Below the pieces are notes generated by a model. The model was not told the origin of the DNA. It saw only the letters and a list, made by a program, of their open reading frames with translations, and did no database searches. 42,336 nucleotides of DNA from Syntrophus aciditrophicus (GTDB lineage Bacteria > Desulfobacterota > Syntrophia > Syntrophales > UBA8958). The stretch is taken from positions 1-42,336 of the forward strand of contig DYRD01000014.1 of assembly GCA_020718905.1 (NCBI GenBank), written 5' to 3'. How positions within the stretch are numbered: the first letter of the stretch is position 1; every line of letters starts with the position of its first letter. This document shows, one piece after another, positions 24,422 to 42,336 of the stretch. Made by a program: the position numbers and the translations under genes.

Positions 24422-25030
24422 TTAAGCAGCCCTGCCGAGATGAAAAGCCTTCATGTTGGCATCGACGACTTTCTTCGGAAAAACTTCCCAGAGAATTTTT
24501 TCCCACATGGCGACCTCCAGGTCCAACCAGTTCGACAGGACGCCGAGGAGGGCGGTGTTTTCTGTCCGCAGGTTTCCCGCTTTGCGAGCTATTTCATGTG
24601 CTTTTACCACTTTTATGTTTTTAAATGTTTCCTGCACGAGATCAATGGCCTCTTCCGGATAGGTCATATCCCCAAGATTGACAGCCGGAGGATAAAGCTC
24701 GAGTTCATTGATGATTATGCTGCTGTCCGGCTTAAGGTAATCCAGATAGCGCAGGGATTCCAGTTTTTCAAAGGCCAGGAGAATGTCGACATTCCCTTTT
24801 CGTTCAATAGGGGAATAGACCTTGCGGCCATAGCGGACATGACTGGTTACGCATCCACCGCGTTGGGCCATGCCGTGGACTTCACTCTTCTTGACATCCA
24901 TTCCCGACTCCATCATGACCAGGCAGAGGATGTCACTGGCCCGTAGAATACCCTGGCCGCCGACACCGGCCATGAGGACGCTTCTTACTTCCTGCGGATT
25001 AAATTTTACAATATTTGATTTTTTAGTCAT
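24422..25030 (-). CDS. iorB: Indolepyruvate ferredoxin oxidoreductase, beta subunit
   Basis: The 202-residue protein begins MTKKSNIVKFNPQEVRSVLM and has the gamma-domain signature AGVGGQGILRASDIL, EVHGMAQRGGCVTSHVRYG and a C-terminal helical region. It is the pyruvate:ferredoxin oxidoreductase gamma-type subunit that, with IorA, oxidises aryl-pyruvates (from transaminated Trp, Phe, Tyr) to aryl-acetyl-CoA, reducing ferredoxin. The frame is complete, and its start lies three bases after the iorA stop. Because iorA is broken, this subunit has no partner encoded here; another IorA or related large subunit elsewhere would be needed. Confidence 0.9.
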   Translation of the reverse strand: MTKKSNIVKFNPQEVRSVLMAGVGGQGILRASDILCLVMMESGMDVKKSEVHGMAQRGGCVTSHVRYGRKVYSPIERKGNVDILLAFEKLESLRYLDYLKPDSSIIINELELYPPAVNLGDMTYPEEAIDLVQETFKNIKVVKAHEIARKAGNLRTENTALLGVLSNWLDLEVAMWEKILWEVFPKKVVDANMKAFHLGRAA

Positions 25031-25033
25031 GAT

Positions 25034-26704
25034 TCATTCCGCCTCCACGATGGCGCCAACTTTGCAAACCTGCTGGCAGATAGTACAACCGGTACATAAA
25101 TCGGCGTCGATAAAAGAATTACCCTCCTGCTTCTTAGCGTTTTTTATAACCTCACCGGCAGGCATATCCGTGAACTTTCGCCAGGCAAGGGGCGGGTAAC
25201 CTAAACCGATACAGTTACGACAACCGATACACTTGTTCACATCGACGCGTAGTGGCTTGAGAGTTTCCGGCTGATGTCTTTTGAAGAGGACACAGGAACG
25301 ACGGGAAATGACAACGGAGGAACCTTGCCTCGCAAGCTCTTCCCGCAGTACATCCCGGGTGTTCTTAATATCGTAAGGATCGATGACCCGCACACTATCG
25401 ATTCCGAGGACTTTGGCCAGTGCGGGGATGTCAAGTTCCTTGGCCTTTACGCCCTTAAGGGTGTAACCGGTACCCGGATGTTCCTGCATCCCCGTCATCG
25501 CCGTGGTCCGGTTATCACAGATTACAATGACGGCCTCTCCCTGGTTGTAGGCCATGTTGAGCAGCGGTGTTATGCCGGAATGAAGAAAGGTCCCATCTCC
25601 GATCACCCCCACAACCTTTCCTTTTCCCCTTTCCTTTAAAGCCTTGCTCATAAGGCTTTGAGCTTTCCCAGCACATGAAAAAGTCCCCGATGGGGGCAGC
25701 CGGGACAGAGATTGGGGGGACGGGCGGGAATGGCGATTTCAGGCAGTTTTATGGCCGTCGCCTGTTTGCCTTTGAGGGCAATTTCAATGACCCCGGGATC
25801 AAATTCATTCGTAAATGGAAAGGTATCCTTACCCGCCACCTCAATGCCCATCGCCCGGATCTGCTCCTCGATGAAAGGATCCAATTCTTCTATAATGTAA
25901 AGTTTTTTGACCTTGGCGGCAAACTCGCGGATCAGCCTTTCCGGCAGGGGATGGACCATGGCCAGCTTGAGATAGGAAAATTCAGGAAAAACATCTTTGG
26001 CATAATTGTAGGGCATCCCCGCAGTAATCACCCCCACTTCGGTCTTGTTAATTTCCAGCCTGTTTTCCGCAAAGGAATCTGCGTATTCCCGCAGGGCCTG
26101 CATCCGCTTTTCCACTTCCAAACGTCTGATTCTGGCCATTGCCGGTACCATGACGTATTTCGACGGCGTGATGCGAATCTCCGTCTTGTCTTCCACGGGT
26201 TGCGGATCTTCGATGATGACCACCGACTTGGAATGGGAGACCCTGGTAGTAGTGCGCAGGAAAACGGGGGTATCGAATCTTTCGCTGATGTCAAAGGCGA
26301 TCTTTATGAATTCCTTCGCCTCTTGGCTGTCTGCCGGTTCGAGCATGGGTATCTTGGCGAATTTTGCATAATTGCGGTTGTCCTGTTCGTTCTGGGAGCT
26401 GTGTGATGATGACCAGGGCGCCGTTGGTACCCGTATAACTGACCGTAAACAGGGGATCGGCTGCGACATTTACACCGACATGCTTCATGGTTACAAGGGC
26501 CCTGGCGCCGGCCACGGCGGCTCCGATTCCAACTTCGAGGCCTACCTTTTCATTAGGGGCCCATTCGGCGTAAACGCCGTCATATTTAGAAAATTCCTCA
26601 AGAATTTCTGTGCTTGGTGTCCCCGGATATCCTACTCCAAACCGTATGCCCCATTCATAGGCGCCTCTGGCGATGGCTTCATTTCCCGACATCAGTACTT
26701 TCAT
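25034..26704 (-). pseudogene. iorA: Indolepyruvate ferredoxin oxidoreductase, alpha subunit, broken
   Basis: Three overlapping frames together spell IorA. 26704-26400 gives MKVLMSGNEAIARGAYEWGI and VSYTGTNGALVIIT. A deletion of about 20 bases (residues like ADDPGMH) near 26400 shifts frame, after which SSQNEQDNRNYAKFAKIPML runs to NLCPGCPHRGLFHVLGKLKA. Near 25650 roughly 35 residues of the TPP domain are missing and the frame shifts again to KALKERGKGKVVGVIGDGTF. The C-terminus retains the ferredoxin-type clusters CIGCRNCIGLGYP and CTGCTICQQVC. The segment lost normally contains GDIGCYTLG and part of the thiamine-diphosphate site, so the enzyme is dead even if fragments are translated. Confidence 0.85.
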
Positions 26705-26725
26705 AGCTACGCTCTCCGCTGTTTG

Positions 26726-27409
26726 CTATCCCAGGATAGCTATTTTTCTTCCGATGATAAGCTTTATTGCCGGATCTTGTGTTTTATCGAGGGCCTTTTG
26801 ATAATATTCGCTTGCCTTTTTATTATCCTTCATGGCCTCATAGGTTCTCGCAAGATTAGCCAGGATATCGCCGGCAAAGGGTTTACCGGCCTTGGCGTTC
26901 AAGGCCTTTTCATACTGTGCCAAGGCGTTTTTGTAATCATTTTCCGCCTCATAGCAATAACCGAGGGCGTTATAAACAAGGATGGTCAACTCGTTTTCTT
27001 CCGATTTATCCCTGAGGTAAACCTGGAAGGCCTTCCGTGCCGCGTCGATCTGGCCGGCATTGAGATATGCATTCCCGATGCGATACTGAGCCAGCAGCGC
27101 CGCTTCCGTGGCTGAATACTTTTCAATTACTTCCTGCAACGGTTTGACGGCGGCCGCCCTATCCTGGGGAGCCTTTCCAATCCGGAATGTATCCATGACG
27201 GCCTTATTGTAGAGGTTCATGGCCTTTGTCTCTTCCGTTTGCCGATAGTAGGACCATCCACCTAACGATACAATCACGACGAGGACCATGGCTGTTACCA
27301 CAGCGAGATTTCGCTTGTGGGTCAGGACATAATCTCTTATTTCCCCCAGGAGCACTTGTAGCTTGTCCGGTTCGGTTATTTCCTGTTTAGACACCTTGTT
27401 TGTTGCCAT
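26726..27409 (-). CDS. TPR-repeat membrane-anchored protein (YfgM-like)
   Basis: The 227-residue product has a cytoplasmic N-terminus (MATNKVSKQEITEPDKLQVL), one transmembrane helix at about 36-54 (LAVVTAMVLVVIVSLGGW) and then tetratricopeptide repeats. TPR motifs are visible as AQYRIGNAYLNAGQIDAARKA, YNALGYCYEAENDYKNALAQ and ANLARTYEAMKDNKKASEYY. The architecture matches YfgM-like proteins, an ancillary SecYEG partner in E. coli; the function here is not proven. GAGGAG lies just before ATG 27409. It sits between apgM and iorA remnants on the same strand and appears intact. Confidence 0.8.
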   Translation of the reverse strand: MATNKVSKQEITEPDKLQVLLGEIRDYVLTHKRNLAVVTAMVLVVIVSLGGWSYYRQTEETKAMNLYNKAVMDTFRIGKAPQDRAAAVKPLQEVIEKYSATEAALLAQYRIGNAYLNAGQIDAARKAFQVYLRDKSEENELTILVYNALGYCYEAENDYKNALAQYEKALNAKAGKPFAGDILANLARTYEAMKDNKKASEYYQKALDKTQDPAIKLIIGRKIAILG

Positions 27410-27485
27410 ATCTTACTCCTCTTTAGTATTGTCAGTATTGTCTCTTGATCTTTCCCTAGCGGTTTCTGCGTAAATCACCATGATC

Positions 27486-28468
27486 CTACTTATGTTTTTC
27501 AAAGAGCGGTCTCCCTTTGTCTATGAAGACGTTCATCAGGTTGCAGCCGGGACTGACTGTCAAACCGGAAGCCTTTGCCGTCTCTTCTCCGTAAGGCAAA
27601 CCGGAGCAACGGTTTTCGCCCGGGAGGGATGAGTAGATGGCAAAGGGGCTGGGATCAGCGGCATGGGTGCGCATGGCGAGCGGCGTGGGATGGTCACTCA
27701 GCACAATGACCCGAACATCTCCCAGTTCACTTATCCCCTTGAGAACCGTGCCGACAACCTTTTCATCGAAATCCTCGATGGCCTTTATCTTTCCCGGCAA
27801 ATTTCCTTCATGGCCCATTTCATCGGGGGCCTCCACATGCACAAACACAAAATCCATTTCCCTAAGGACGGTCAGGGCCTGCTGGGCCTTGCCGAGATAA
27901 TTTGTATCCGTATAACCGGTTGCTCCCTCCACCCGAATGGGCATGAGGCCGGCATAAACAGCGATCGGTGAGTTTATCCATATGGGGAGCCCTGCCCCCA
28001 TAGCCAAATGGCATTGGCCGGCTTCTTGCCCCGTTTTATCCTGGCAAGATTGACGGGGTGCGCTTTCAGCAGCTTCCCGGCATTTTTCATTAATGACCGG
28101 ATGTCCCGGTCGCCATTTCCCCGCGGGAGAAAACCGTTGGTGGTTTGCCCGGTTATGTCATGGGGCGGAGTTGTGCTCATCGTCTCTTTGCCGTGACGCC
28201 AGACCAGGAAAAGATGCCCATATTAGCTGCTTCCAAAGGCCCCCGTCCCGAGTAACAGGCAGCGGGGTCATAACCGAGGACGCTAAGATTAGCCACGTCA
28301 CTACCCGGCGTAAATCCTCTGGGTATAAGTATCTATCAATCCCAGGGTCCCTTTTTGAGCCATAAAATCCATGTGAATGGTCCGGGCTGCCTCTAGCGGC
28401 GTTTTTCCTCCCAATTCATCCAGCTGGTAATCGGCCATGCCGTCCCCAAGCAAGACAAGGTATTTCAT
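27486..28468 (-). pseudogene. apgM: Cofactor-independent phosphoglycerate mutase (ApgM type), broken
   Basis: ATG 28468 starts MKYLVLLGDGMADYQLDELG with the metal Asp motif GDGMAD. An extra T (28327-28328 as AA on the plus strand) shifts frame after GLIDT; the next frame reads [28 protein letters not shown] and AANMGI. About 90 codons are then missing before [20 protein letters not shown]. Within WLWGQG...PHMDKLTDR five bases are lost, and about 25 further codons are missing before YAGLMPIRVEGATGYTDTNY. The last part, with VHVEAPDEMGHEG and VLSDHPTP, is intact to the stop at 27486. The active-site Ser/Thr motif region survives, but the frame is broken at least three times. It formerly interconverted 3- and 2-phosphoglycerate. 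Confidence 0.82.
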
Positions 28469-29537
28469 CAGCCTCTCTCATCCTCGATGCGAATAACGAC
28501 GGTAGGTTCATGAACTATATCCAATTGATCAATTCGCTGCAGGGCCTCCTGGACATCCCGCTCCCGGGCTTTGTGGGTGGTCATTACCACGGGTACCACC
28601 CCGTCCTTGACAATGCTGATATTCATCTCTCCGAGAATTCCGGCTATCTTGGAGAGGACACCCGCCTTGTCTGCGGCCATGAAGCGGGAATAATAATTTG
28701 TTTGAATCTCGGAAAAGGGAACCAGTTTGATATCATCGATGTCGGATGAATACGCGCCTCCACAAGGTCACCCCGCTCAAAGGCAAGCGCCAAAAGCTTG
28801 ATGCGATATCCGAACTCCCTGGCAAATTCGATATCCTGCTGGCTGATCCGGGAGATGCCTTCCCGATAAATGCTTGCGATGTCAACCCGCTTTCCGTAGG
28901 CAAGGGAAAGGGTGATCGCCAGTTTATGGGCCGTATCTATTCCCTCGACATCGAAAGTCGGATCGGCTTCGGCAAAGCCGAGGGCTTGGGCCTCCTTGAG
29001 CACGTGGGCAAAGGCCTTTCCCTCATCCGTCATATTCGAGAGGATGTAGTTCGACGTGCCGTTCATAATGGCCATGAGCGATTTAATCCGGTTCGCTACG
29101 AGGGATTCCTTTAAAGTCTTGATAATAGGAATCGTCCCGCCGACACTGGCCTCAAAGCGGATATCCACCTTTTCCCGGTTCGCCGCCTGAAATATTTCGT
29201 TGCCGTAGGTTGCCAGGAGAGCCTTATTTGCGGTCACAACATGTTTTTTCCTGGTCATGGCCTCCATAATAAAGGTCCGCGACGGTTCATACCCTCCCAT
29301 AAGTTCAATAACGATTTGAATATCCGGATCATCAAGAATATCTTTTGCATCTGTCGTCAGAATGTCAGCCGCCACCTGGACAACGCGGGGTGTTTTAATA
29401 TCGAGATCGGCGATTCTCTTTAAGACAAGCCGGGCACCAAGACGCTTTTCAATTAGATCGCCACTTTCCTGCAGCAGTTTCACAACCCCTGCACCGATAG
29501 TTCCGAATCCGATTAGTCCCAAGGAGATCTTCTTCAT
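28468..29537 (-). pseudogene. hom: Homoserine dehydrogenase, broken
   Basis: ATG 29537 begins MKKISLGLIGFGTIGAGVVK (Rossmann NAD(P) site). It continues through the catalytic domain with VVTANKALLATYGNEIF, IMNGTSNYILSNMT and GFAEADPTFDVEGIDTAHKL up to EARIHPT. There about 70-80 codons (the end of the catalytic domain and the hinge) are missing and the frame shifts. The other frame then gives DDIKLVPFSEIQTNYYSRF and the ACT domain AADKAGVLSKIAGILGE to the stop at 28468-28470, overlapping the apgM start. Homoserine dehydrogenase makes homoserine for Thr and Met. The missing part includes conserved catalytic-domain sequence, so loss of function is likely. Confidence 0.85.
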
Positions 29538-29569
29538 GAAATGGCTTCCCTGAATATTTTTAGCTCGTG

Positions 29570-29596
29570 TTTATAATAGACTAGCGGGTTTGTCAA
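29570..29596 (-). promoter_or_regulatory. Sigma70-type promoter for hom-apgM
   Basis: On the minus strand TTGACA (29596-29591) is followed 15 bases later by TATAAA (29575-29570), or 17 bases later by TAAACA. It lies about 35 bases before the hom start, and the divergent purM transcript begins on the other side. Confidence 0.5.
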
Positions 29597-29721
29597 AATA
29601 AATTGCCCGTTATAGGGAATAATTGACTTTCCCGAGGGATTGAGTTAAAGGGGCAGTGCTGCCACGGGAGCAAATCTTCCTAATCCAATATTATCTAGTA
29701 GCCGCTATAAGGATAAAAGTA

Positions 29722-30765
29722 ATGACTGCATCATATCAACAGGCCGGTGTGAATATTGATCAGGCCAATCTATTTGTGAAAAGAATCAAGCCCCTTGTTA
29801 AAAAGACGGCCAGGAAGGAAGTTATGAGCGGCATTGGCGGCTTTGGCGGGCTTTTCCATCTCGATTTAAAAAGAAATCCCGACCCTGTGCTCGTATCCTC
29901 CACAGACGGGGTGGGAACCAAGCTTAAAATCGCTCAGATACTCAAGCGCCACGATACGATCGGCATCGATCTCGTGGCAATGTGTGTCAATGACGTTATC
30001 GTTCAAGGTGCGGAACCACTTTTTTTTCTCGACTACTTAGCAACGGGAAAAATCCGCATGGGAACAAGTATCGCCATCGTCACCGGCATTGTCAAGGGAT
30101 GTCTTGATGCGGGCTGTGCCTTGATCGGCGGCGAAACGGCGGAGATGCCGGGTTTTTATAATGACGGCGAATACGATCTGGCCGGTTTTTCCGTCGGCGT
30201 GGTAAATGCGGATCGCATGATCGACGGTTCGGAGATCCGCGTTGGCGACCGGATCATCGGTATCGCCTCCAATGGACTGCACAGCAACGGCTACTCTCTG
30301 GTCCGAAAGATAGTTTTCGAGATCGCCAGTCTCGACCCCCAGGCCCACCCCGCCGGTCTCGAATGTACCATTGGCGAGGAAATGTTGAAGCCGACCCGCA
30401 TCTACGTCAAACCTCTGCTCAATATTATTAAATATTTTCATATCAAGGGGCTCGTTCATATTACGGGTGGTGGTTTTCTTGATAACATTCCCCGCATTGT
30501 GCCCCTTCCCTGCAAGGCCGTAATTTATAGGGACAGTTGGCCTATCCTTCCCATCTTTACCCTTCTTAAGGAGTTGGGTAATGTGGAAGAAATCGAGCTG
30601 TTGCGGGTGTTCAATATGGGTGTGGGCATGATGATGATTGTCTCTGAGAAGGATGTTATCGAAATTATGGATAGACTTGTAAAACTCGGAGAAAAGCCTT
30701 ATTGTATCGGTCATATTGAAAAACGTGATCCTGAGGAATCCCCCGTAATATTTTCAGTGCCATGA
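29722..30765 (+). CDS. purM: Phosphoribosylformylglycinamidine cyclo-ligase
   Basis: The 347-residue enzyme is full length from ATG 29722, preceded by AAGG at 29709-29712; the frame is open further upstream but without homology. It converts FGAM to AIR with ATP in purine synthesis. Family motifs are visible: SYQQAGVNIDQANLFVKRIK, STDGVGTKLKIA, CVNDVIVQGAEPLFFLDYLA, GGETAEMPGFY and HITGGGFLDNIPRI. No lesion is present. The purN start overlaps the stop codon (ATGA), giving a purMN operon. Confidence 0.96.
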   Translation: MTASYQQAGVNIDQANLFVKRIKPLVKKTARKEVMSGIGGFGGLFHLDLKRNPDPVLVSSTDGVGTKLKIAQILKRHDTIGIDLVAMCVNDVIVQGAEPLFFLDYLATGKIRMGTSIAIVTGIVKGCLDAGCALIGGETAEMPGFYNDGEYDLAGFSVGVVNADRMIDGSEIRVGDRIIGIASNGLHSNGYSLVRKIVFEIASLDPQAHPAGLECTIGEEMLKPTRIYVKPLLNIIKYFHIKGLVHITGGGFLDNIPRIVPLPCKAVIYRDSWPILPIFTLLKELGNVEEIELLRVFNMGVGMMMIVSEKDVIEIMDRLVKLGEKPYCIGHIEKRDPEESPVIFSVP

Positions 30766-31427
30766 AGACAAGGCTCCCCATAGGTATCCTCGTCTCCGGC
30801 AGCGGCTCCAACCTCCAGGCAATCATCGACCATATCGAAGAGGGAAAACTCGACGCCGTCATAAAAGTTGTCATCAGCGACAACCCGCAGGCTTTTGCCT
30901 TGGAGAGATGCCGGCGCCACAACATTCCCTATGTAATCATCAACCATAAAGATTATCCGCTGCGGGATGACTTTGATCAGCAACTGATTTACGAACTGCA
31001 ATCCCGGGGCGTCGAACTGGTGATTATGGCGGGTTTTATGAGGATTTTGACCGCCCGTTTTTTGTCATCCTTTCCCATGCGGATCATGAATATTCATCCC
31101 GCCCTCCTCCCGGCGTTTCCCGGTTTGCATGTGCAAAGGCAGGCCGTTGAGTACGGTGTTCGCTTTTCCGGCTGCACGGTTCATTTCGCCGATGACGGCG
31201 TGGATACGGGGCCCATTGTCATTCAGTCGGTGGTTCCCGTTTATGAAGACGACAACGAAGGGATGCTGGCTCAACGTATCCTGAAGGAGGAACACAAAAT
31301 TTACCCTCAAGCTATTCAATGGTTCGCCGAGGGCAGGCTGGAGGTAAAAGGGCGGAAAGTTCATCTCCGAGCGGCAAAAGAATTGCACGTTACTCCTCAA
31401 CATAACCCGTCCCTGGTGATAAGATAA
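30762..31427 (+). CDS. purN: Phosphoribosylglycinamide formyltransferase
   Basis: The 221-residue enzyme transfers a formyl group from 10-formyl-tetrahydrofolate to GAR in purine synthesis. It has the phosphate loop GILVSGSGSNLQAIID and the catalytic triad region RIMNIHPALLPAFPG (Asn, His), completed by the Asp in DGVDTGPIV. The start overlaps the purM stop by four bases, so translation is coupled. The C-terminal tail after KVHLRAAKELHV is slightly longer than the E. coli enzyme. Intact. Confidence 0.96.
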   Translation: MKTRLPIGILVSGSGSNLQAIIDHIEEGKLDAVIKVVISDNPQAFALERCRRHNIPYVIINHKDYPLRDDFDQQLIYELQSRGVELVIMAGFMRILTARFLSSFPMRIMNIHPALLPAFPGLHVQRQAVEYGVRFSGCTVHFADDGVDTGPIVIQSVVPVYEDDNEGMLAQRILKEEHKIYPQAIQWFAEGRLEVKGRKVHLRAAKELHVTPQHNPSLVIR

Positions 31428-31447
31428 CTCAGAGGAGGAATCGTCAT

Positions 31448-32630
31448 ATGGCGCCGAACAAACTTAATTTTGATATCCAGTCCCTGGCAGAGGCGACCAT
31501 CCCTTCGCTGATCACGCTCAGCTATTTTACCCCCGACACCAAACGCGTCCTATACGATCATGATTTGAAAAAAATTGCGGAATATTGCTGGGACGAAGGT
31601 ATGCCTGCCGCCATCGAAGTGGCGGGACCAAGGGAATTGATCTATTATGACCCGCCGAAAACAAAAGCGGCAATTGTGACCTGCGGCGGTCTGTGTCCGG
31701 GAATAAACGATGTGATCAGGGCCATCGTCATGGAACTTTATAATCGCTACGGAGTCAGCAATATCATCGGTATCAAGTATGGTTTCCAAGGGTTGATTCC
31801 GAGATACGGCCATGACGTGATTGATTTATCGCCGGAAATCGTCAAGGATATACATGCGGGGGGAGGTAGCATCCTTTCTTCATCCCGTGGAAAGCAGGAT
31901 ATCAAGGAAATGGTCACCGTCCTCAAGAGAATGAATGTGGACATTTTCTTCTGCATCGGTGGTGATGGCACCATGCGGGCCACGGAACTCATTACGGAAG
32001 AAATATCGAAGAGAAAACTTGATATCAGCGTGATCGGCGTTCCTAAAACCATCGACGACGACTTGAACCTCGTGGACAAGACCTTCGGTTTTGACACCGC
32101 CATTTCCGCGGCGGTTCATGCCATTGAGTGTGCCCATGTGGAGGCGAAAGGGGCGCCCATGGGCATCGGTCTGGTCAAGTTGATGGGCAGACAATCCGGG
32201 CATATTGCCGTCCACGCCGCTCTGGCCCAGAATGACGCCAATTTTGTCCTGATTCCGGACGTATCTTTCGATCTGTACGGAGAAAAAGGCTTCCTTAAGG
32301 CTTTGGAGACGCGCCTGCGCAAACGTAAACACTGTGTGATCCTCGCTGCGGAAGGGGCGGGTCAGGAGTTTTTCCGTCCCGTAGAAGGGGAAATCGATAC
32401 GGATGCCTCGGGAAACATTAGACTTCGCGGACATAGGCGTATATCTGAAGGAAATCATCGTACACGCCGGCATGGCCGGCAAAACGGGTATGCTGGTCGG
32501 TCGTTTCCGGGGCGAATATGTCCATCTTCCCCTGCATGCGGTCCAGTCAGGCAAGCAGGTCGATCCGTCAGGAAATATCTGGATGCGGGTCATCGAATCC
32601 ACGGGCCAGCCGATATCCATGAAAAATTAA
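31448..32630 (+). pseudogene. 6-phosphofructokinase family, broken near the 3' end
   Basis: ATG 31448 follows GAGGAGG. The N-terminal three quarters are well preserved: TCGGLCPGINDVIRAIV, FFCIGGDGTMRATELI, GVPKTIDDDLNLVDKTFGFD and GLVKLMGRQSGHIAVHAALA, the pattern of the long TP0108-type PFK group. At 32429-32430 one extra G shifts frame inside SGNIRLR-DIGVYLKEII. About 50 codons that should follow (IDPSYIIRS-type substrate loop) are absent before VHAGMAGKTGMLVGR, and the proper C-terminus ends at 32630. The observed frame instead runs on with unrelated sequence to 32638. A dead or strongly altered phosphofructokinase is expected. ATP or pyrophosphate as donor cannot be settled. Confidence 0.8.
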
Positions 32631-35848: not shown

Positions 35849-35923
35849 AAAAATTACTCCCGTTAGTCCGTTATAAATCTCAAGATGAAGCCAACGAGGA
35901 TGGCGCCTTGCTTCAGAACGTAA

Positions 35924-37068
35924 TCACAGCCAGCGTTTCCGTCTGCGGTATGATTTCACGTCCCGATATGCCCGCATGTCTCCCGAGGCGGCCATACCAA
36001 GATAAAACTCCTTGATATCCGGATTTTCCACCAACTCTTCCGCTCTGCCCTCCATGACGATTTTTCCGTTCTCCATGACATAGCCGTGTTGGCGTTCTGT
36101 TCAACCAGAACGATCGTCGCTCCCTGTTCGGCGTTGATTTTTTTTATAATACCGAAGAGCTCCCGCACAATAAGGAGGAGGGGGGGGGCGAGGCCAAGGG
36201 ATGGTTCGTCAAGAAGGAGGAGTTCGGGCCTCTGGCCATGAGGGCCCGACCAATGACGAGCATCTGCAGCTCTCCGCCGCTGCAGTAGCCGGCCCTGGCC
36301 CGACGACGGGCGCGGAAAATAGTTATAGACCATATATCGCCCCGGACATGTTGCCCATGCCGCCGATAAGGAACTGATCGCAAAGGCGAGGAGTTTGTAG
36401 GGAAAAATGGGAATGCCCATCCCCTCGGCGGCCCGGTCGTTGTCCCTGATGGCCACGAAAGCCCGTCCATATTTTGTGCGCATAAGATTGATGGCCAACC
36501 AAAGCATCAGCAGCAGGGCAATGAAAATCACATAAAAGAAGGAAACGTCGCCGCTTATCGCTAGCCCGAAAACATTTGCCTTGGGCAGGGTGATGCCCAT
36601 GGTGCCCTGGGTCACATCTTCCCAGTGGACCAGGACATATTCAATGATGAATTGACCGGCCAGGGTGGCAATCGTCAGATAGAGCCCCTTTAATCTGCTG
36701 GAAGGAAGTCCGAAGATCAGTCCTACCAAGGCGGTGATAAGTCCGGCGGCAGGGACGCTGAGAAGAAAAGGAACATCCCCGCGGGTGGCGAGGAAGGCGG
36801 CGCCATAAGCGCCGACGCCAAAGAATGCTCCGTGGCCCAAGGAAATCTGCCCGGTGTAACCGATGAGGATGTTCAGCCCGATGGCGGCGATACCGATAGA
36901 ATTGAGGATGTATAAAAAATATTGACTGCTGACAAAAGGAGCCAGACCGAAAAGGAGGATCAGACCTGCCGCGGCAAAAAAACGGCCATAATCGGTTTAA
37001 TAGACCTTCAACTGATCGGCATAGTTTTCATGATAGTTGGCGCAGGGATGGAAAACCATTTTTTTCAT
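35924..37068 (-). pseudogene. Fused remnants of branched-chain amino-acid ABC permease LivM and ATPase LivF
   Basis: ATG 37068 starts MKKMVFHPCANYHENYADQL, but codon 24 is TAA (36999-36997) where relatives have Gln. The frame then continues through [40 protein letters not shown] and several helices to KLLAFAISS. From there LivM is shortened and shifted ([14 protein letters not shown] in another frame) and runs straight into LivF sequence. The LivF part has [56 protein letters not shown] and finally [20 protein letters not shown], in alternating frames, ending at 35924. The end of LivM and the Walker A region of LivF are gone. No transporter can be made from this. Confidence 0.82.
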
Positions 37069-37069
37069 A

Positions 37070-37922
37070 TCAGACCCTTTCAATCTCCACCTGGCCGAAG
37101 AGGCCGTAAGGCTTCACCATCAAAATAAACACGAGGACCATATAGGGCACCACGTCCCGCAGGGACGGCGATATATATCCGCCGGTAAGAGTTTCTAATA
37201 GGCCGATAATGAGCCCGCCGACAATGGCGCCGCCGATGCTGTCGAGGCCTCCGAGAATGACCACGGTAAAGACCTTGAGCCCGATGGCGCTGAGATCATG
37301 AACATTGACTCCGTTAATGATACCGAGGATGATACCGCTCATGCCGGCAACTAACGCGGCGATTGCCCAGGAGAGAGCAAATACCTGCTTGACATTGACC
37401 CCTAGGGAGAGGGCGGCCCGTTGATTATCGGCGACGGACCGCATATAAATGCCTTGGGATGAAAATTTAAAGAAAAGTCCGAAGAGGGTGAGAAAGGTCG
37501 TTCCGATCACCAGCGCCAGCGTATAAACGGGCTGCACCGCTACGGTTCCCCAGGTAAGGTTCAACCAGGATGGCAGAAAATCGGGAAAAGTATGGAGATT
37601 ACCTCCCCAGATCAACAATATCAGCCCTTTGAACATTGCCGCGAGACCTACGGTAAGCATGATGACGAAGATCAGGGGCTCACCGATCAAGGGCCGTAAC
37701 GTAAAAAGAGACGTTCCACAAAGAATCCGAGGGAAAAGCATGCCGCTATCGTCAACAGGAAGGCAGCGTAAACGGGCAGTTCCGCCCAGGTTACGAGGAC
37801 GAGGAAGATGTACGCTCCCGTCGCCAGCAGTTCTCCATGAGCAAAATTGAGCACACTCGATGATTTGAAGATCATGACAAAACCCATGGCGGATATTCCG
37901 TCAGTTGTATGAAAAAATCCAT
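37070..37922 (-). pseudogene. livH: Branched-chain amino-acid ABC transporter permease LivH, broken
   Basis: The likely start is ATG 37922 (MDFFIQLT). A deletion of about 10 codons plus a shift leads to GISAMGFVMIFKSSSVLNFA and HGELLATGAYIFLVLV, the LivH N-terminal region. At 37695-37704 the pentamer CGTAA is exactly duplicated (TTACG on the coding strand), adding five bases and shifting frame inside RLFLR-PLIGEPLI. The rest is well preserved to the stop: MLTVGLAAMFKGLILLIWGG, GVNVKQVFALSWAIAALVAG and VILGGLDSIGGAIVGGL. The protein would have formed half of the membrane channel of a branched-chain amino-acid/amide importer. Confidence 0.85.
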
Positions 37923-38023: not shown

Positions 38024-39949
38024 TTAGACAGCCAGGATGTTAACTTTTGTGGTTATCTCCCCTACCCTGCCGTCACGGTAACGAAGCTTACCTTTTGTCT
38101 CCACTTGTGTCATGTCACGATACATGGACTCGATCAGTTGGAGATAGAGCCCATAGATAAAACGCCTGCGCACCTTGCCGGTGCGGGTCAATTCTTCATC
38201 GTCCGCGTCGAGGAGTTTATATAGGAGCAAAAATTTCCTGATTTTCATCAGATCAGGTAATTGCTTGTTGATTTCCCTTATTTCGTTGCAGATCAGGTCT
38301 TCCACCGCCTGTTGCTGGGATAGATCCAGGTAGGTTGTAAAAGGGATAAGCCTTTCCTCCGCCCAGTTGCCGACGTTTTCCATATCGATATTGACCATGG
38401 CCGTAATGAAAGGTCGCGATTCTCCAAAAGTGACCTCCTCTTTGACATAGGGGCTGAATTTCAGACGGGTTTCAATAAAATCAGGCGAAAAAGCCTGGCC
38501 ACTCTTGTTCTTGATGATGTCTTCCTTGCGGCCGATGATGATTAGATGTCCGTCCTGATCAAGATAGCCGGCGTCCCCCGTCCTCAGCCAACCGTTATGG
38601 AAGGCCTTTTCCGTGGTCTGAAAATCGCGGTAATACCCTGAGAACAGGGAATCGCTTTTCACCATTACTTCCTGATCCGCATCGAGCATGATCTCGACGC
38701 CGGGCAGCGGCTTGCCAACGGTTTCCGGTTTCACCTGCTGATCCGGCTGCACCTGAAAGATGCCCCCTGCTTCGGTAAGACCGTAACACTGTTTGAGATT
38801 CATGCCGATAGCCTGAAAAAATCTGATAACATCGGGACTGACCGGGTGCCCTCCCGTGTAGGCGTTACGGAAACGGGAGCAGCCGATCCGATCGAGGAGG
38901 GGCTCATAAACAAGCTTGGCGGCAAGACGATGTAAGATTTTCTCATGCCAATCCGCCGCTTCCCCGGCAGATTGTTTTTCAATTACCGCACGGCCTGTTT
39001 TTTCGGCCCAATGGAATAGACGGCGTTTAATCCATCCGGCGTCGGCCATCTTGACCCGGATCTTTGAGGCGAGATCCTCCCAGAAGCGGGAGGCGGTGAT
39101 AATCACCGCAGGACCGATCTCGCGAAAATCTTCGGTCACCGTTTCGTGGGTCTCGGGAAAATTCATGGTCATCCCGCTGTAGAGGGAGACGCCGAATCCC
39201 CACATCTGATCAACAATCCAGGCCGGGGGAGAAATGGAAAGCCAGTTCTCTCCGGCCTGCAGAGATATCGCCTCCGTCCACTGCTTCCCGATCGCCGTCA
39301 TGCTCCGATGGGATAGCATGGCAAGCTTCGGCATTCCCGTCGTCCCCGATGTCTGGATCATCAACGCAATATCTTTGGGTTTTCCTTTGTTTAATTCTCT
39401 GTTAAAGATTCCCGGATCCTCGCAGTCCAGTTCTTCTCCCACCCGCAGTAAATCCGCATAGGCCTGCAACCACTCCAGGTCCCGGTAGGAACGCATGCCC
39501 GTAGGATCAACATAGATAACCTTCCGTACATGTTTGATATTGTTCTTAATCTCAAGAAGTTTGTCCACTTGCTCCTGGTCCTGGACAATAACCAGGGCCG
39601 CCTGGGTGCGCTGGATGGAAGCTTGCAGCTCATCGGGGGTAGCCGACGTGAAGACGTTCATCGTGACGGCCCCCAAGGACTGGGCGCCGATTTCCGTAAA
39701 CAGCCATTCGGGATGATTGTTCAGGATCAGGATAACATTTTCCCCGTGACGCAGCCCGAGGGCAGCAAGGCCCATGGTGGTTATGCGGGCATAACGGAAA
39801 TATTCTTCCCAGGTATAGGCATGCCAGATGCCGTATGCCTTTTCCCTTATGGCCGTGAAGTTTTTACCCAATACGGCGGCTTGTCGTGCAAGCATCTGGG
39901 GCAAGGTCAACGCACCGTCGTCTATGGTTCCGATTCTTTTCTCCTTCAT
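38024..39949 (-). CDS. AMP-dependent synthetase/ligase (long-chain acyl-CoA synthetase-like)
   Basis: The 641-residue enzyme activates a carboxylic acid as an acyl-adenylate and transfers it to CoA. Visible motifs are the P-loop QTSGTTGMPK (199-208), NAYTGGHPVSPDVIRFF, the adenine-binding CYGLTEAGG, GWLRTGDAGYLDQDGHLIII and the catalytic Lys region GRKEDIIKNKSGQAFSP. Length fits FadD15/long-chain-type ligases. It starts five bases after the livG stop, within the liv operon. Such ligases embedded in liv-type operons are common in anaerobic aromatic- and fatty-acid degraders, so the substrate may be an aromatic or branched acid taken up by the system; this is inference. The gene shows no lesion although all surrounding transporter genes do. 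Confidence 0.88.
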   Translation of the reverse strand: MKEKRIGTIDDGALTLPQMLARQAAVLGKNFTAIREKAYGIWHAYTWEEYFRYARITTMGLAALGLRHGENVILILNNHPEWLFTEIGAQSLGAVTMNVFTSATPDELQASIQRTQAALVIVQDQEQVDKLLEIKNNIKHVRKVIYVDPTGMRSYRDLEWLQAYADLLRVGEELDCEDPGIFNRELNKGKPKDIALMIQTSGTTGMPKLAMLSHRSMTAIGKQWTEAISLQAGENWLSISPPAWIVDQMWGFGVSLYSGMTMNFPETHETVTEDFREIGPAVIITASRFWEDLASKIRVKMADAGWIKRRLFHWAEKTGRAVIEKQSAGEAADWHEKILHRLAAKLVYEPLLDRIGCSRFRNAYTGGHPVSPDVIRFFQAIGMNLKQCYGLTEAGGIFQVQPDQQVKPETVGKPLPGVEIMLDADQEVMVKSDSLFSGYYRDFQTTEKAFHNGWLRTGDAGYLDQDGHLIIIGRKEDIIKNKSGQAFSPDFIETRLKFSPYVKEEVTFGESRPFITAMVNIDMENVGNWAEERLIPFTTYLDLSQQQAVEDLICNEIREINKQLPDLMKIRKFLLLYKLLDADDEELTRTGKVRRRFIYGLYLQLIESMYRDMTQVETKGKLRYRDGRVGEITTKVNILAV

Positions 39950-39953
39950 AACT

Positions 39954-40729
39954 TCATCCCAGATACGCCCGGATAACTTCTGGATGACGGCCTATTTCAT
40001 CCGCCGTGCCTTCGGCAATTTTTTCTCCGAAATTAAGGACGGCGATACGATGGGAAATGCTCATGACAATAGCCATGTCATGTTCAACGAGGATGATGGT
40101 CTGTCCCCAGACTTCATTGATCTCCGTGATAAACCGAACCATATCTTCCTTACGAGTAGTCGCGGTTCAAGGGCCAGTGCCCTTCCCAACTCCACCCTTT
40201 TCATCAACCCATAGGGTAAGGAGGCCACGTTTTTATTTCTTATGGCCTGTATCTCCAGGAAATCGATCAGCTCTTCGATCAAGCGGCGGTGCCTGACTTC
40301 CTCCCGGCGTACGGCCGGAAGATAGAGACCTGCTCCCGGGAAGGTATAACGGCAGTAAAGATGACGAGCCAGGATCATGTTGGCAAGGACGGTCATCCCG
40401 GGAAAAAGTTCAATATTTTGAAATGTCCTGCCGATACCGACCTTGACGAGGTTATGGGCATGCATCCGGGTGATGTCTCGGGTGTTAAAGATAATATGGC
40501 CGCTTTTGGGTTTGTAGAACCCGGTAATGCAATTCATGAGACTCGTCTTGCCGGCCCCGTTCGGACCGATTACGGCGAATAATTCCCCGTTTCCCACTTT
40601 CAGGTCGATGTTGGCAAGGGCCCTCACACCGCCGAAATTAAGAGACAATTCCCGGATCTCCAACTCGGCGTAGCGATCTTTCTCCTGTCTGGCCGCAAAG
40701 ATTGCCGGTTGTCCACGATAGGTCTTCAT
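39954..40729 (-). pseudogene. livG: Branched-chain amino-acid ABC transporter ATPase LivG, broken at Walker B
   Basis: ATG 40729 gives a normal LivG start with ELEIRELSLNFGGVRALANI, Walker A GPNGAGKTS and VGIGRTFQNIELFPGMTVLA, up to VELGRALALEPRLL. At about 40168-40172 some 40 bases are missing: the Walker B segment (LLLDEPTAGMNP in relatives) is deleted and the frame shifts. The other frame resumes EDMVRFITEINEVWGQTIIL with the switch His in VEHDMAIVMS and ends at 39954. Without Walker B and the D-loop no ATPase activity is possible. Confidence 0.86.
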
Positions 40730-40742
40730 TTGCTTTGAGCGG

Positions 40743-41938
40743 TCACTTCAAAAGTTGAATTTTTTCTTTGCCGGGAATGAAAAACTTCGTCAGCGGCACA
40801 TAAGTCCCGTTTTCCTTGACTTTAACGATACTTGCCTTGAAGGAGGCGCCATGATCCGTTTTCGTATACGTCACATTTGGAACGAGGCCCCCAAAATCTT
40901 CATTCTTGAAGGACTCCAGGGCATTGTTGATCGTTTCGCGGTTAATGTCCCCGTATTTCTCATGAGCTCTGACAAAGGCCCGCTCCATGCTCATGGCCAC
41001 AACCACTCCTTCCCAGTAGGAGGCGTCGAATTTGGTAACCGTTTTGTACCTGCTCCACAAGTCCGTCATGATCTTCATGCCCGACATGGGATCGGAAGGC
41101 AGGCCGCCGGGGAACTGCATCAACAACCTGTCCCTGATTATTCCCTTCCCGAGTTTGAAGAAATCCGGATCCGTCGAGGTCCACGTACCGAAAAACATCG
41201 GTCCGAAGCCTATGCGATCGGCGCTCTTGAAGGTTGTAATGATTGCCGAAGGGAGCATTTGCATGACCACGTACTGGGTCCCCTGCCGCTGCAACCGGAG
41301 CAGTTCCGTCGTCAGATCCACCGTTTTCGGTGGAAATTCTTCAATGGCGACAATGTCGATATTTATTTTCTTGGCGTATTCAGTGCTCGGTTTGTGGATG
41401 GAGCGCCCATAGGCGTTATTGAAGGTAAGCAAAAGGTAAGCAAACCGACCTTCGGCGCCTCTTTTCCTTTGTGAATGGCCCGGATATAATCAAGGATGGC
41501 ATAACAGTCCATCTTATAGCTGCCAAAGGGTGCGAGTATCTCCCAGCTGGTCGAATAATTGATGGTGGGGATTTTGTATGTCTGAATAATCGGTTTGGCG
41601 GCCAGACCCTCCCCGGCGCCCCAGGTGGCAATCATATCAACCTTTTCCTGAACGGCAAATTTGCGCACCGCCGCCACTGCCTCAGGCACTTTGTAAGCCG
41701 TATCGACCAGGGTCATCTCGATGCGGTTTCCGGCCACCCCTCCCTTAACTTCGTTGACATAGCGGAAATAGTCCTGCTGTCCTTTGGCATGATACTGTCC
41801 CCAGGTGGAGGCAGGTCCGGTCATATTGATCGCGGCGCCTACTTTGATGGTCTTTGCCGACGCCACGCCGGCAAAACTGATGCTCAGGAAGCCGGCCAGA
41901 ATGGTGATAAGAAATCTTTGTCCCCTTTGTCTGCGCAT
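40743..41938 (-). pseudogene. livJ: Branched-chain amino-acid ABC transporter substrate-binding protein, broken by a tandem duplication
   Basis: ATG 41938 follows AGGGAGGG. A signal peptide (FLITILAGFLSISFAGVASA) precedes the mature start KTIKVGAAINMTGPAS of a periplasmic-binding-protein type I fold. After KEAPKVGLLTF the frame breaks at an exact 11-base tandem duplication (AAGGTAAGCAA at 41422-41432 and 41433-41443 on the plus strand). Removing one copy restores LLTFNNAYGRSIHKPSTEYA, which continues to the stop at 40743 with ELLRLQRQGTQYVVMQML and FFGTWTSTDPDFF. No other lesion was seen. Ligand could be branched-chain amino acids, amides or aromatic acids. Confidence 0.88.
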
Positions 41939-41960: not shown

Positions 41961-41977
41961 TCACCGCTCGGCGGTGA
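41961..41977 (-). repeat. Small hairpin between attenuator and livJ ribosome-binding site
   Basis: TCACCGC (41961-41967) and GCGGTGA (41971-41977) form a 7-bp stem with a 3-base loop, immediately after the terminator T-run in the livJ leader. It may stabilise the processed mRNA 5' end; role unknown. Confidence 0.4.
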
Positions 41978-42016
41978 AAAAAAAGCCGTGGGCTTCCTTG
42001 CGGTCTGCCCACGGCT
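41977..42016 (-). terminator. Attenuator-type intrinsic terminator in the liv leader
   Basis: On the minus strand AGCCGTGGGC (42016-42007) pairs perfectly with GCCCACGGCT (41993-41984) and is followed by an uninterrupted run of T. It lies between the promoter and livJ, seven bases downstream of the leader ORF stop, so it can only serve as a regulated (attenuating) terminator for the liv operon. An upstream GCTCGT (42041-42036) can pair with ACGAGC (42019-42014), whose last three bases are the first three of the terminator stem, giving a candidate antiterminator. Confidence 0.75.
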
Positions 42017-42023
42017 CGTTCGT

Positions 42024-42107
42024 TTATCTCAGCTCACGAGCACGGCCGGCAGGCCTCCTCAAAAAAGCTAAAAAAGAAATCGGGTTGCTGCTCATCTGAC
42101 TGCTCAT
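42024..42107 (-). CDS. Putative leader peptide of the liv operon
   Basis: An ATG at 42107 opens a 27-codon ORF, MSSQMSSNPISFLAFL then RRPAGRARELR, ending with TAA at 42026-42024, just before the terminator stem. A weak AAAGG precedes it; a second in-frame ATG lies at 42095. It contains Ile, three Leu (TTA, TTG, CTG) and two Phe codons, which could act as control codons for ribosome stalling. Position, length and the terminator right behind match ribosome-mediated attenuation. The peptide itself is not recognised as a known leader, and translation is unproven. Confidence 0.5.
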   Translation of the reverse strand: MSSQMSSNPISFLAFLRRPAGRARELR

Positions 42108-42141
42108 GATTTTAAGTACCTTTAAGCGCTGATGGAGAAAA

Positions 42142-42170
42142 TCATTAATAAATGCGGGGACGAATGTCAA
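42142..42170 (-). promoter_or_regulatory. Sigma70-type promoter for the liv operon
   Basis: TTGACA on the minus strand (42170-42165) is followed after 17 bases by TAATGA (42147-42142). The -35 box is perfect and the -10 box mediocre. Transcription would start near 42135, about 28 bases before the leader ORF. Confidence 0.5.
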
Positions 42171-42240
42171 GATTTTTCTGCCCGTCATTGATTTTCGCTG
42201 CCTAATTTTTCGATCCCGTAGCGGCGGGAATCAAAACTAA

Positions 42241-42336
42241 GATCTGAATCTTTCCCGATCCAGTATTTACTATAGCCCGGGGCCGATCAGTGCGAGGGAT
42301 ATAGAGTTGATGCGTCAGACAGATGAGATTCATTTA
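42241..42336 (+). mobile_element. IS3-family transposase (OrfB) fragment running off the right end
   Basis: From 42241 the plus strand reads DLNLSRSSIYYSPGP and continues ISARDIELMRQTDEIHL to the last base. This matches the N-terminal region of IS3/IS150-type OrfB transposases (LxLSRSSxYY ... LMRxIDEIHLE), just ahead of the DDE catalytic core. A TAA lies directly before it in frame (42238-42240) and no OrfA or normal OrfB start is visible, so it is a 5'-truncated or decayed copy. The rest lies outside the window. Confidence 0.65.

Follow-up and report, generated by a model that had tools for sequence, protein, structure and literature searches.

The window, by which we mean the whole stretch of 42,336 nucleotides that was analysed, is contig C241 of a genome assembled in 319 contigs. 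On its minus strand it carries a liv-type ABC operon, whose genes were named from family matches or from their resemblance to G007, another genome of the same genus, and further downstream a pair of iorAB-like genes:

40743..41938, minus strand, periplasmic substrate-binding protein (Peripla_BP_6), frame broken, with 24 nt deleted and 11 nt inserted, the insertion apparently a tandem duplication
39957..40729, minus strand, livG-like ATPase, frame broken, with a 37-nt deletion
38024..39949, minus strand, acyl-CoA ligase (AMP-binding), 641 aa, intact
37070..37899, minus strand, livH-like permease, frame broken, with a 31-nt deletion and a 5-nt duplication
36352..37068, minus strand, livM-like permease, truncated, with deletions of 103 and 600 nt
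35888..36405, minus strand, livF-like ATPase, 5′ part deleted and frame broken
25037-26704, minus strand, iorA-like gene, in three frames
24425-25030, minus strand, iorB-like gene, intact

Compared with G007, the ligase gene is the only gene of the window operon whose frame is not broken. Outside the operon, the hom-, apgM-, phosphofructokinase- and iorA-like genes at 25037-32627 are split into several frames relative to G007, and the dnaE, guaB, recJ, purM, purN and iorB homologues are intact relative to the same genome (names mostly by eye in both cases). Ahead of the operon, at the contig end, lies a switch made of the following elements, from upstream to downstream:

42142..42170, minus strand, promoter-like pair, TTGACA (42170-42165), 17 nt, TAATGA
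42024..42107, minus strand, 27-codon ORF MSSQMSSNPISFLAFLRRPAGRARELR ending at a stop, which keeps the start codon of the relatives and runs in the wrong frame past a 16-nt deletion (at about 42075)
42093..42100, minus strand, position of the protector arm (segment 1), placed by eye, degenerate in the window and GGCAGATC in three genus relatives
42034..42081, minus strand, ancestral Phe-codon frame DFFFSFFEEACRPCS ending at a stop, its in-frame start codon absent in the window
42036..42055, minus strand, antiterminator 5′ arm (segment 2), GGCCTGCC at 42055-42048 and GCTCGT at 42041-42036
42002..42019, minus strand, antiterminator 3′ arm (segment 3), ACGAGC at 42019-42014 and GGCAGACC at 42009-42002
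41977..42016, minus strand, intrinsic terminator (3:4), a perfect 10-bp stem of AGCCGTGGGC (42016-42007) and GCCCACGGCT (41993-41984) running into T8 (41984-41977)

The first-pass annotation had drawn attention to TTGACA, the 27-codon ORF, the 10-bp stem with its T run and a pairing of GCTCGT with ACGAGC, and all four were found on the minus strand at the coordinates listed above. The two hexamers, however, make up no more than the distal half of the antiterminator, whose main half, formed by GGCCTGCC and GGCAGACC, had been missed. Likewise, the 27-codon ORF that had been taken as the leader does exist, but it is a frameshifted remnant and not the ancestral frame, six relatives reading a Phe-rich frame instead. 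Because the 16-nt deletion separates the ATG frame from the Phe codons, the Phe frame of the window (42081-42034) lacks a start codon, and no ATG, GTG, TTG or CTG is found in this frame. The distance of its stop from the antiterminator arm, 19 nt, is the one seen in 48 of 54 relatives. The window antiterminator contains one C.A mismatch (42053/42004) at a pair that is T-A in all six genus relatives, and its energy is -23.1 kcal/mol, compared to -26.6 to -29.6 kcal/mol in these relatives. The longest complement to segment 2 is 4 nt in the window versus 8 nt in L042, L043 and L058, and a second hairpin 3′ of the terminator, present in G003, is deleted. A terminator scan of the window, limited to loops of 3-8 nt, did not report the 10-bp stem, whose loop is 13 nt; a promoter scan favoured an 18-nt spacer and AATGAT instead of 17 nt and TAATGA. 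Neither scan helped much. A covariance model trained without the window recovers the element with a rough E-value of 9.5e-17 in 318 kb, a match far above chance. The leader ORF with a run of regulatory codons that marks trp/phe-type attenuators is not found in the window copy. The elements of the attenuator claimed for the window itself are in place, but the copy appears degraded and its regulation may be lost.

A DNA search found the leader in six of the seven other genomes of the genus; in the seventh, G001, the binding-protein gene is severed by the contig end. Each of the six leaders lies between a response regulator gene, of the NtrC type in G007 according to Pfam, and the binding-protein gene. 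All six contain a Phe-rich ORF, for instance MNRQISNITISGFFFSFFSFFGEVCRPCS and MARQRKFNLAFFFSFNGFFGEVCSPRS, each followed by a stop, and FFFSFFSFFGEVCRPCS, again followed by a stop, exemplifies the Phe-rich leader peptide of the relatives. On average, the final 24 residues of the 54 distinct liv-type leaders contain 6.15 Phe, 0.98 Tyr and 0.02 Trp, together with 1.41 Leu, 1.02 Ile and 1.81 Val; exact residue totals and leader N-termini are approximate, because the leader ORF and its start codon were picked by a script that prefers aromatic content. At least five Phe are present in these 24 residues in 51 of the 54 leaders; two leaders have four, and L055, whose Phe run appears frame-broken, has three. 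Counted from the start of the antiterminator arm, the stop codon comes 19 nt downstream in 48 of 54 leaders and 8 or 10 nt downstream in the remaining six (L051, L055, L111; L108, L109, L120). Over the 20 codons that precede this stop, the other two frames carry stops in 30 and 53 of the 54 leaders. A -35/-10-like pair is found upstream of 50 of 55 distinct liv-type leaders, window included, using a loose pattern without chance control. The control residue, which the first-pass annotation had left as Leu/Ile versus Phe, is settled: judged from the leader codons, the liv-type switch is controlled by Phe. The 14 leaders found ahead of DAHP synthase genes contain on average 2.86 Phe, 4.07 Tyr and 0.86 Trp in their last 24 residues. 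Liv-type leaders are thus mostly Phe and DAHP synthase leaders a mixture of Phe, Tyr and Trp, so that one architecture is read through different codons.

The antiterminator of the relatives pairs GGTCTGCC..GCTCRT with AYGAGC..GGCAGACC, the genus member G006 deviating in both halves. In an alignment that was fitted to the structure, and so favours it, and whose 74 distinct rows cover the window and the liv, DAHP synthase and ligase types, 87.2% of the antiterminator cells pair and double changes occur at 12 of 17 pairs, in 61 cells. None of 500 shuffles matched these covariation values, and sliding the columns by 1-3 positions left pairing at 24-43%. An unfitted alignment of the six genus sequences shows 98% of cells paired and two double-change pairs; its shuffles reach the paired percentage in 15 of 500 cases and two double-change pairs in 71 of 500, so that these six sequences alone prove little. 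Antiterminator and terminator share segment 3 and are mutually exclusive. Their median energies over 54 leaders are nearly equal (-23.85 kcal/mol for the antiterminator and -23.5 kcal/mol for the terminator), the antiterminator being lower in 33 of 54. When only the 5′ side of the arm was masked, the lowest-energy fold was the terminator in 41 of 54 leaders and the antiterminator in 13. Antitermination must therefore be kinetic, that is, set by the order of transcription. In 28 of 54 leaders, compared to 0.7 expected, a protector GGCAG precedes arm 2 by 28-52 nt; the other 26 lack it in that interval. The longest complement to arm 2 anywhere upstream, a less specific measure, is matched by at most 5 of 100 shuffles in 11 of 55 rows, window included. 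A search of 16 loci against Rfam, with its leader, riboswitch and T-box families, gave no match above the gathering score of any family, and an Rfam scan of the window at E up to 5 gave two weak matches, on the opposite strand only. The first-pass annotation had proposed aligning the leaders of Syntrophales relatives: in these, the Phe-codon frame is conserved and the antiterminator covaries. Order-wide conservation, covariation and the leader peptides of the relatives together uphold its claim of a leader-peptide attenuator ahead of the liv-type operon, and Phe-specific ribosome-mediated attenuation of the trp/phe type is well supported by these comparisons.

The distribution of the switch was followed with two covariance models, R1 built on the six genus relatives and R2 built on 21 leaders. 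Of 20 named contigs that encode the binding protein, 18 have an R1 match upstream of its gene, and in the other two (L046 and L047) the sequence ends before the leader. These contigs belong to MAGs labelled Syntrophus, Syntrophaceae, Smithella, Smithellaceae, Deltaproteobacteria and similar; Smithella is placed in Syntrophales by NCBI taxonomy, and an order of 149 genomes was taken as Syntrophales on the basis of MAG labels. Whatever the downstream gene, R2 matches in 112 of these 149 genomes and in 44 of the 53 genera of the order. Among 297 genomes of the phylum it matches in 34, nine of which, counted from the listing, belong to the order. Downstream genes were classed for 40 fetched R2 places and for loci extracted directly in the R1 and R2 searches. 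The 40 fetched places comprise 23 liv-type operons, 12 DAHP synthase loci and five that are neither. All six operon genes occur in one order in 18 of the liv-type places, and the other five show as many of them as the stretch contains; 11 of the DAHP synthase places also have a pheA-like gene, the twelfth, L139, being cut. A further 22 R2 loci are all of the liv type. The liv-type switch was thus verified in 16 families of the order (including f1), ahead of the genes SBP-LivG-acyl-CoA ligase-LivH-LivM-LivF.

Where the switch is missing, the operon is mostly missing too. The binding protein, searched at E up to 1e-40, was absent from 17 of 22 tested genomes, which were 20 match-free genomes of the order plus G044 and G063, whose switches are of the DAHP synthase type only; 17 further match-free genomes of the order fall outside this test. 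The other five tested genomes are G022, G038, G050, G058 (a fragment) and G001 (cut by the contig end). G044 has no such binding protein, and its only switch is that of DAHP synthase. In the f13 genomes G022, G038 and G050, the binding protein is retained with no R2 match and no visible Phe run upstream, so that the switch has apparently been lost and the protein kept. The corresponding loci (L184, L185 and L186) show a promoter-like site and apparent stem relics, with no Phe run.

Outside the order, 25 genomes have a match and 21 have loci that were read. Three genomes of family f52 carry a liv-type switch. By tblastn, seven of the loci outside the order precede DAHP synthase and three the liv operon. 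Eight others precede an apparent 2-amino-3,7-dideoxy-D-threo-hept-6-ulosonate synthase, an assignment with which a family search agrees in L153 and L166; in L153 the next gene encodes 3-dehydroquinate synthase II. In L157 the switch precedes shikimate kinase and chorismate synthase, and L160 lies at a contig end and is unclassed. These mixed aromatic targets indicate that the model detects aromatic attenuators generally, the liv type being one branch. The leaders of f52 differ from the others, ending in NFFFFD (L150 and L156) or GFFSFFFFC (L152), their stop immediately preceding arm 2; the arms of L152, GGTCTACC and GGTAGACC, represent a double change, and the operon behind them is again the liv operon. 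Leaders such as YYFYFWYYWF are seen in L153, L158, L162, L165 and similar loci before the alternative shikimate-entry genes.

To what end would a transporter operon respond to Phe? The acyl-CoA ligase gene is found inside the operon in all 18 loci that show six genes. Among the 17 liv-type loci with enough sequence, 11 have a PaaK-like gene after livF and on its strand (the six without it being L108, L116, L117, L121, L144 and L145). So do five of eight named contigs tested, one of them, L050, coinciding with the contig of L143, and both of the f52 loci tested; G007 has no PaaK-like gene after livF. A search for the PaaK-like protein in 99 genomes of the phylum matched in 13, and livF lies within 1.5 kb in 11 of these 13 loci. 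The best families of the two PaaK-like proteins tested are PaaK, with scores of 182-224 bits that remain below the curated cut-offs of 646-700. The binding protein of G007 scores 50.3 bits against the LivJ/LivK NCBIfam model, below its cut-off of 477, and the closest solved relatives of the binding protein and of the ligases are too distant for substrate assignment.

CoA-activating genes also follow the switch elsewhere. In four loci (L126, L129, L134 and L135, from G021, G037, G040 and G060), it precedes an acyl-CoA ligase of 510-516 aa; L135 (G060) was assigned no leader because its Phe run is one base out of frame with the conserved stop, across a T7 run. In G030, an 89% complete genome with no match for the binding protein, the switch lies ahead of an SSF-family symporter and an acyl-CoA ligase. 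A weak match in G194 (E 0.0024) precedes CoA-transferase-like and acyl-CoA synthetase alpha-like genes, both of which score below the curated family cut-offs. This locus, L168/L171 (G194:C350), is one of the 21 outside the order; its Phe-rich leader, MKDRGHFRFQGFCFFSFRNGSALFSFQP followed by a stop, stands before genes that are family III CoA-transferase-like and acetate-CoA ligase alpha-like.

The term liv-type, as used in the first-pass annotation, is right by family, but a branched-chain amino acid is an unlikely substrate given the Phe leader, the internal acyl-CoA ligase and the PaaK-like gene of many relatives. From the Phe label, the ligase, the PaaK-like gene and the other CoA-activating targets, we infer that the operon handles an aryl acid that feeds Phe synthesis. 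A possible route involves indolepyruvate oxidoreductase (IOR). The iorAB-like genes (24425..26704) lie about 9 kb downstream of the operon in the window and 14 kb from it in G007, and are on the same contig in G006. Five of the 8 genus genomes and 2 of the 14 control genomes have an IOR-alpha (TIGR03336) above its curated cut-off, which no piece of the window iorA passes. We found no attenuator ahead of iorA in the genus, and no IorA or IorB match in the liv regions, of up to about 21 kb, fetched outside the genus. We gave little weight to the proximity of iorAB and the operon because the stretches of other families do not show it. Seven of the 8 genus genomes have pheA, and Phe salvage is therefore not essential. 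The use of aryl acids via indolepyruvate oxidoreductase is a reported route in Methanococcus maripaludis (Porat et al., as cited in PMC4162585), and PMC5817080 describes IorAB used in the reverse, oxidative direction.

In our preferred reading, which we hold to be probable, the window site is a degraded copy of a Phe-specific ribosome-mediated attenuator placed on an operon for aryl-acid uptake and CoA activation that serves Phe salvage. According to the trp/phe paradigm, when Phe-tRNA(Phe) is ample the ribosome would reach the leader stop and cover arm 2, the terminator would form and transcription would end early. When Phe-tRNA is short, the ribosome would stall on the Phe codons, arm 2 would pair with arm 3 and the operon would be transcribed. 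The transporter would then import an aryl acid such as phenylacetate, which the ligase would convert to its CoA ester, and an IOR-type 2-oxoacid:ferredoxin oxidoreductase could carboxylate this ester to phenylpyruvate, leading to Phe.

Other readings of the switch were weighed against this one. The "liv" label would suggest control by Leu, Ile or Val, and the window ORF indeed reads ISFLAFL, with Leu and Ile codons. However, the frame of this ORF is not conserved, the branched-chain averages of the 54 leaders (1.41, 1.02 and 1.81) compare with 6.15 for Phe, and the DAHP synthase leaders are aromatic too; Leu/Ile control was rejected on the Phe-dominated counts of the liv-type leaders, and branched-chain control as a whole is scarcely credible. 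The element might alternatively be a plain terminator, either constitutive or belonging to the response-regulator gene, of the sigma-54 type, that ends just upstream in the six genus relatives, and would then have no leader function. This is very unlikely, considering that a promoter-like pair, defined without chance control, separates the regulator gene from the terminator, that conservation extends to the leader ORF and to a second structure, which covaries, and that other genes, identified by eye, lie upstream in some copies such as L133, L134 and L135. A conserved and structured element could also be a metabolite riboswitch, a T-box or a protein-bound leader instead of being controlled by ribosomes. 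With what is conserved besides the two stems being a Phe-coding frame with a nearly fixed stop, and the 16 loci having no Rfam match at gathering score, this is highly improbable; a known Rfam element was rejected on the latter ground.

A further explanation accepts the Phe attenuator but assigns the operon to the import of Phe or another aromatic amino acid, the ligases serving otherwise. The binding protein belongs to a family annotated as amino acid binding, and in other systems starvation for an amino acid switches on importers of that amino acid. We nevertheless consider Phe import unlikely: the acyl-CoA ligase lies inside each of the 18 six-gene loci, often with the PaaK-like ligase after them, and in L126, L129, L134 and L135 the switch precedes an acyl-CoA ligase with no adjoining liv-type gene. 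The window copy might, for its part, be intact in nature, the frameshift and the broken neighbours being assembly damage. Nearby hom-, apgM- and phosphofructokinase-like frames (names by eye) are broken as well, and the assembly has 319 contigs and repeated loci. On the other hand, the window operon, which is 84.9% identical to that of G003 over 6257 aligned bases, differs from it by changes that are not homopolymer slips, among them 5- and 11-nt duplications as well as deletions of 16, 24, 31, 37, 40, 103 and 600 nt. In addition, the frames of the acyl-CoA ligase and of the recJ, dnaE and guaB homologues are intact, and no second copy of the binding protein was found in the window genome, where the search gave two distant matches of 22-28% identity. 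Assembly damage thus has some plausibility but is the lesser possibility, and a genuine decay of the window operon and its switch is more likely.

Ribosome-mediated attenuation and Phe leaders are textbook knowledge, exemplified by pheL-pheA and pheM-pheST of gammaproteobacteria. The switch described here shares with these a Phe-rich leader and an antiterminator competing with a terminator, and is likewise expected to be on when charged tRNA-Phe is low. It differs in its target, a liv-type ABC operon with CoA ligases, where theirs are genes for making Phe or for the Phe tRNA synthetase. That a leader controls genes of amino acid transport also has precedents in E. coli, in the Leu-linked premature termination of livJ and in the leader-peptide control of a permease in tnaCAB; the residue, the RNA and the operon differ from those found here. 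Within Syntrophales, the DAHP synthase-pheA attenuators have the same RNA architecture as the liv type and are detected by the same models, but their leaders mix Phe, Tyr and Trp codons.

In the literature, phenylalanine attenuators and the pheST operon are mentioned in PMC1262725. According to Naville and Gautheret (2010, PMC2965389), very few ABC transporters are known to be under transcriptional attenuation. The ABC-leaders of that study resemble our switch in being premature terminators ahead of ABC transporter operons; unlike it, the five examples shown in figure 4 comprise one probable T-box, the others being motifs whose sensing is unknown. Its main text contains no occurrence of "Syntroph", "phenylalanine" or "branched-chain". 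As cited in PMC4162585, aryl acids and indolepyruvate oxidoreductase provide Methanococcus maripaludis with a second route to aromatic amino acids, similar to the one proposed here; the route here is inferred, and Phe leader-peptide control would be the new element. In those parts of the open-licence literature that were covered, we recognised no description of a liv-type operon preceded by a Phe leader, nor of Syntrophales attenuators. The mechanism is already known; the RNA element lies outside Rfam and its operon target is unusual.

The gene sets found behind Phe-reading switches are a liv-type ABC transporter with acyl-CoA and PaaK-like ligases, a separate ligase, an SSF symporter with a ligase and, in a related lineage, a CoA-transferase with an acyl-CoA synthetase. 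They might together form a Syntrophales Phe-salvage regulon, a wider proposal on which we find the case evenly balanced. Phe-reading switches would stand before several unrelated uptake and CoA-activation sets, aryl acids would be turned into Phe by reductive carboxylation, and a parallel de novo aromatic operon would be under a Phe/Tyr/Trp switch; many ligase-containing "branched-chain" transporters would then be aryl-acid importers. Leader codons are a written label of the amino acid served, and hence a strong hint to the substrate class of a common but vaguely named ABC operon. This makes it possible to test whether phenylacetate-like acids, once scavenged, are used by syntrophic bacteria to build phenylalanine. 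A further gain is an order-wide RNA element without Rfam match, in which a single architecture is re-tuned by its codons, mostly Phe in one type and Phe/Tyr/Trp in the other.

The window genome itself contains three DAHP synthase-pheA loci, L031, L035 and L078 (G000:C263, C284 and C286). Those on C263 and C284 score identically, and the leader peptides of L082 (C263) and L078 (C286) differ. The contig end beyond the switch (42173-42336) is a patchwork: 42326-42272 recurs at the start of C130 (96%), 42240-42173 is found again in C259 (93%), next to a damaged copy of the response regulator, and 42336-42241 does not correspond to the regulator-gene end known from the relatives. In the first 800 positions of L018 (G000:C259), a leader remnant consists of the 3′ arm of the terminator and the second hairpin, flanked by a damaged response regulator gene and by a VgrG-type-like ORF (spike protein, named by eye).
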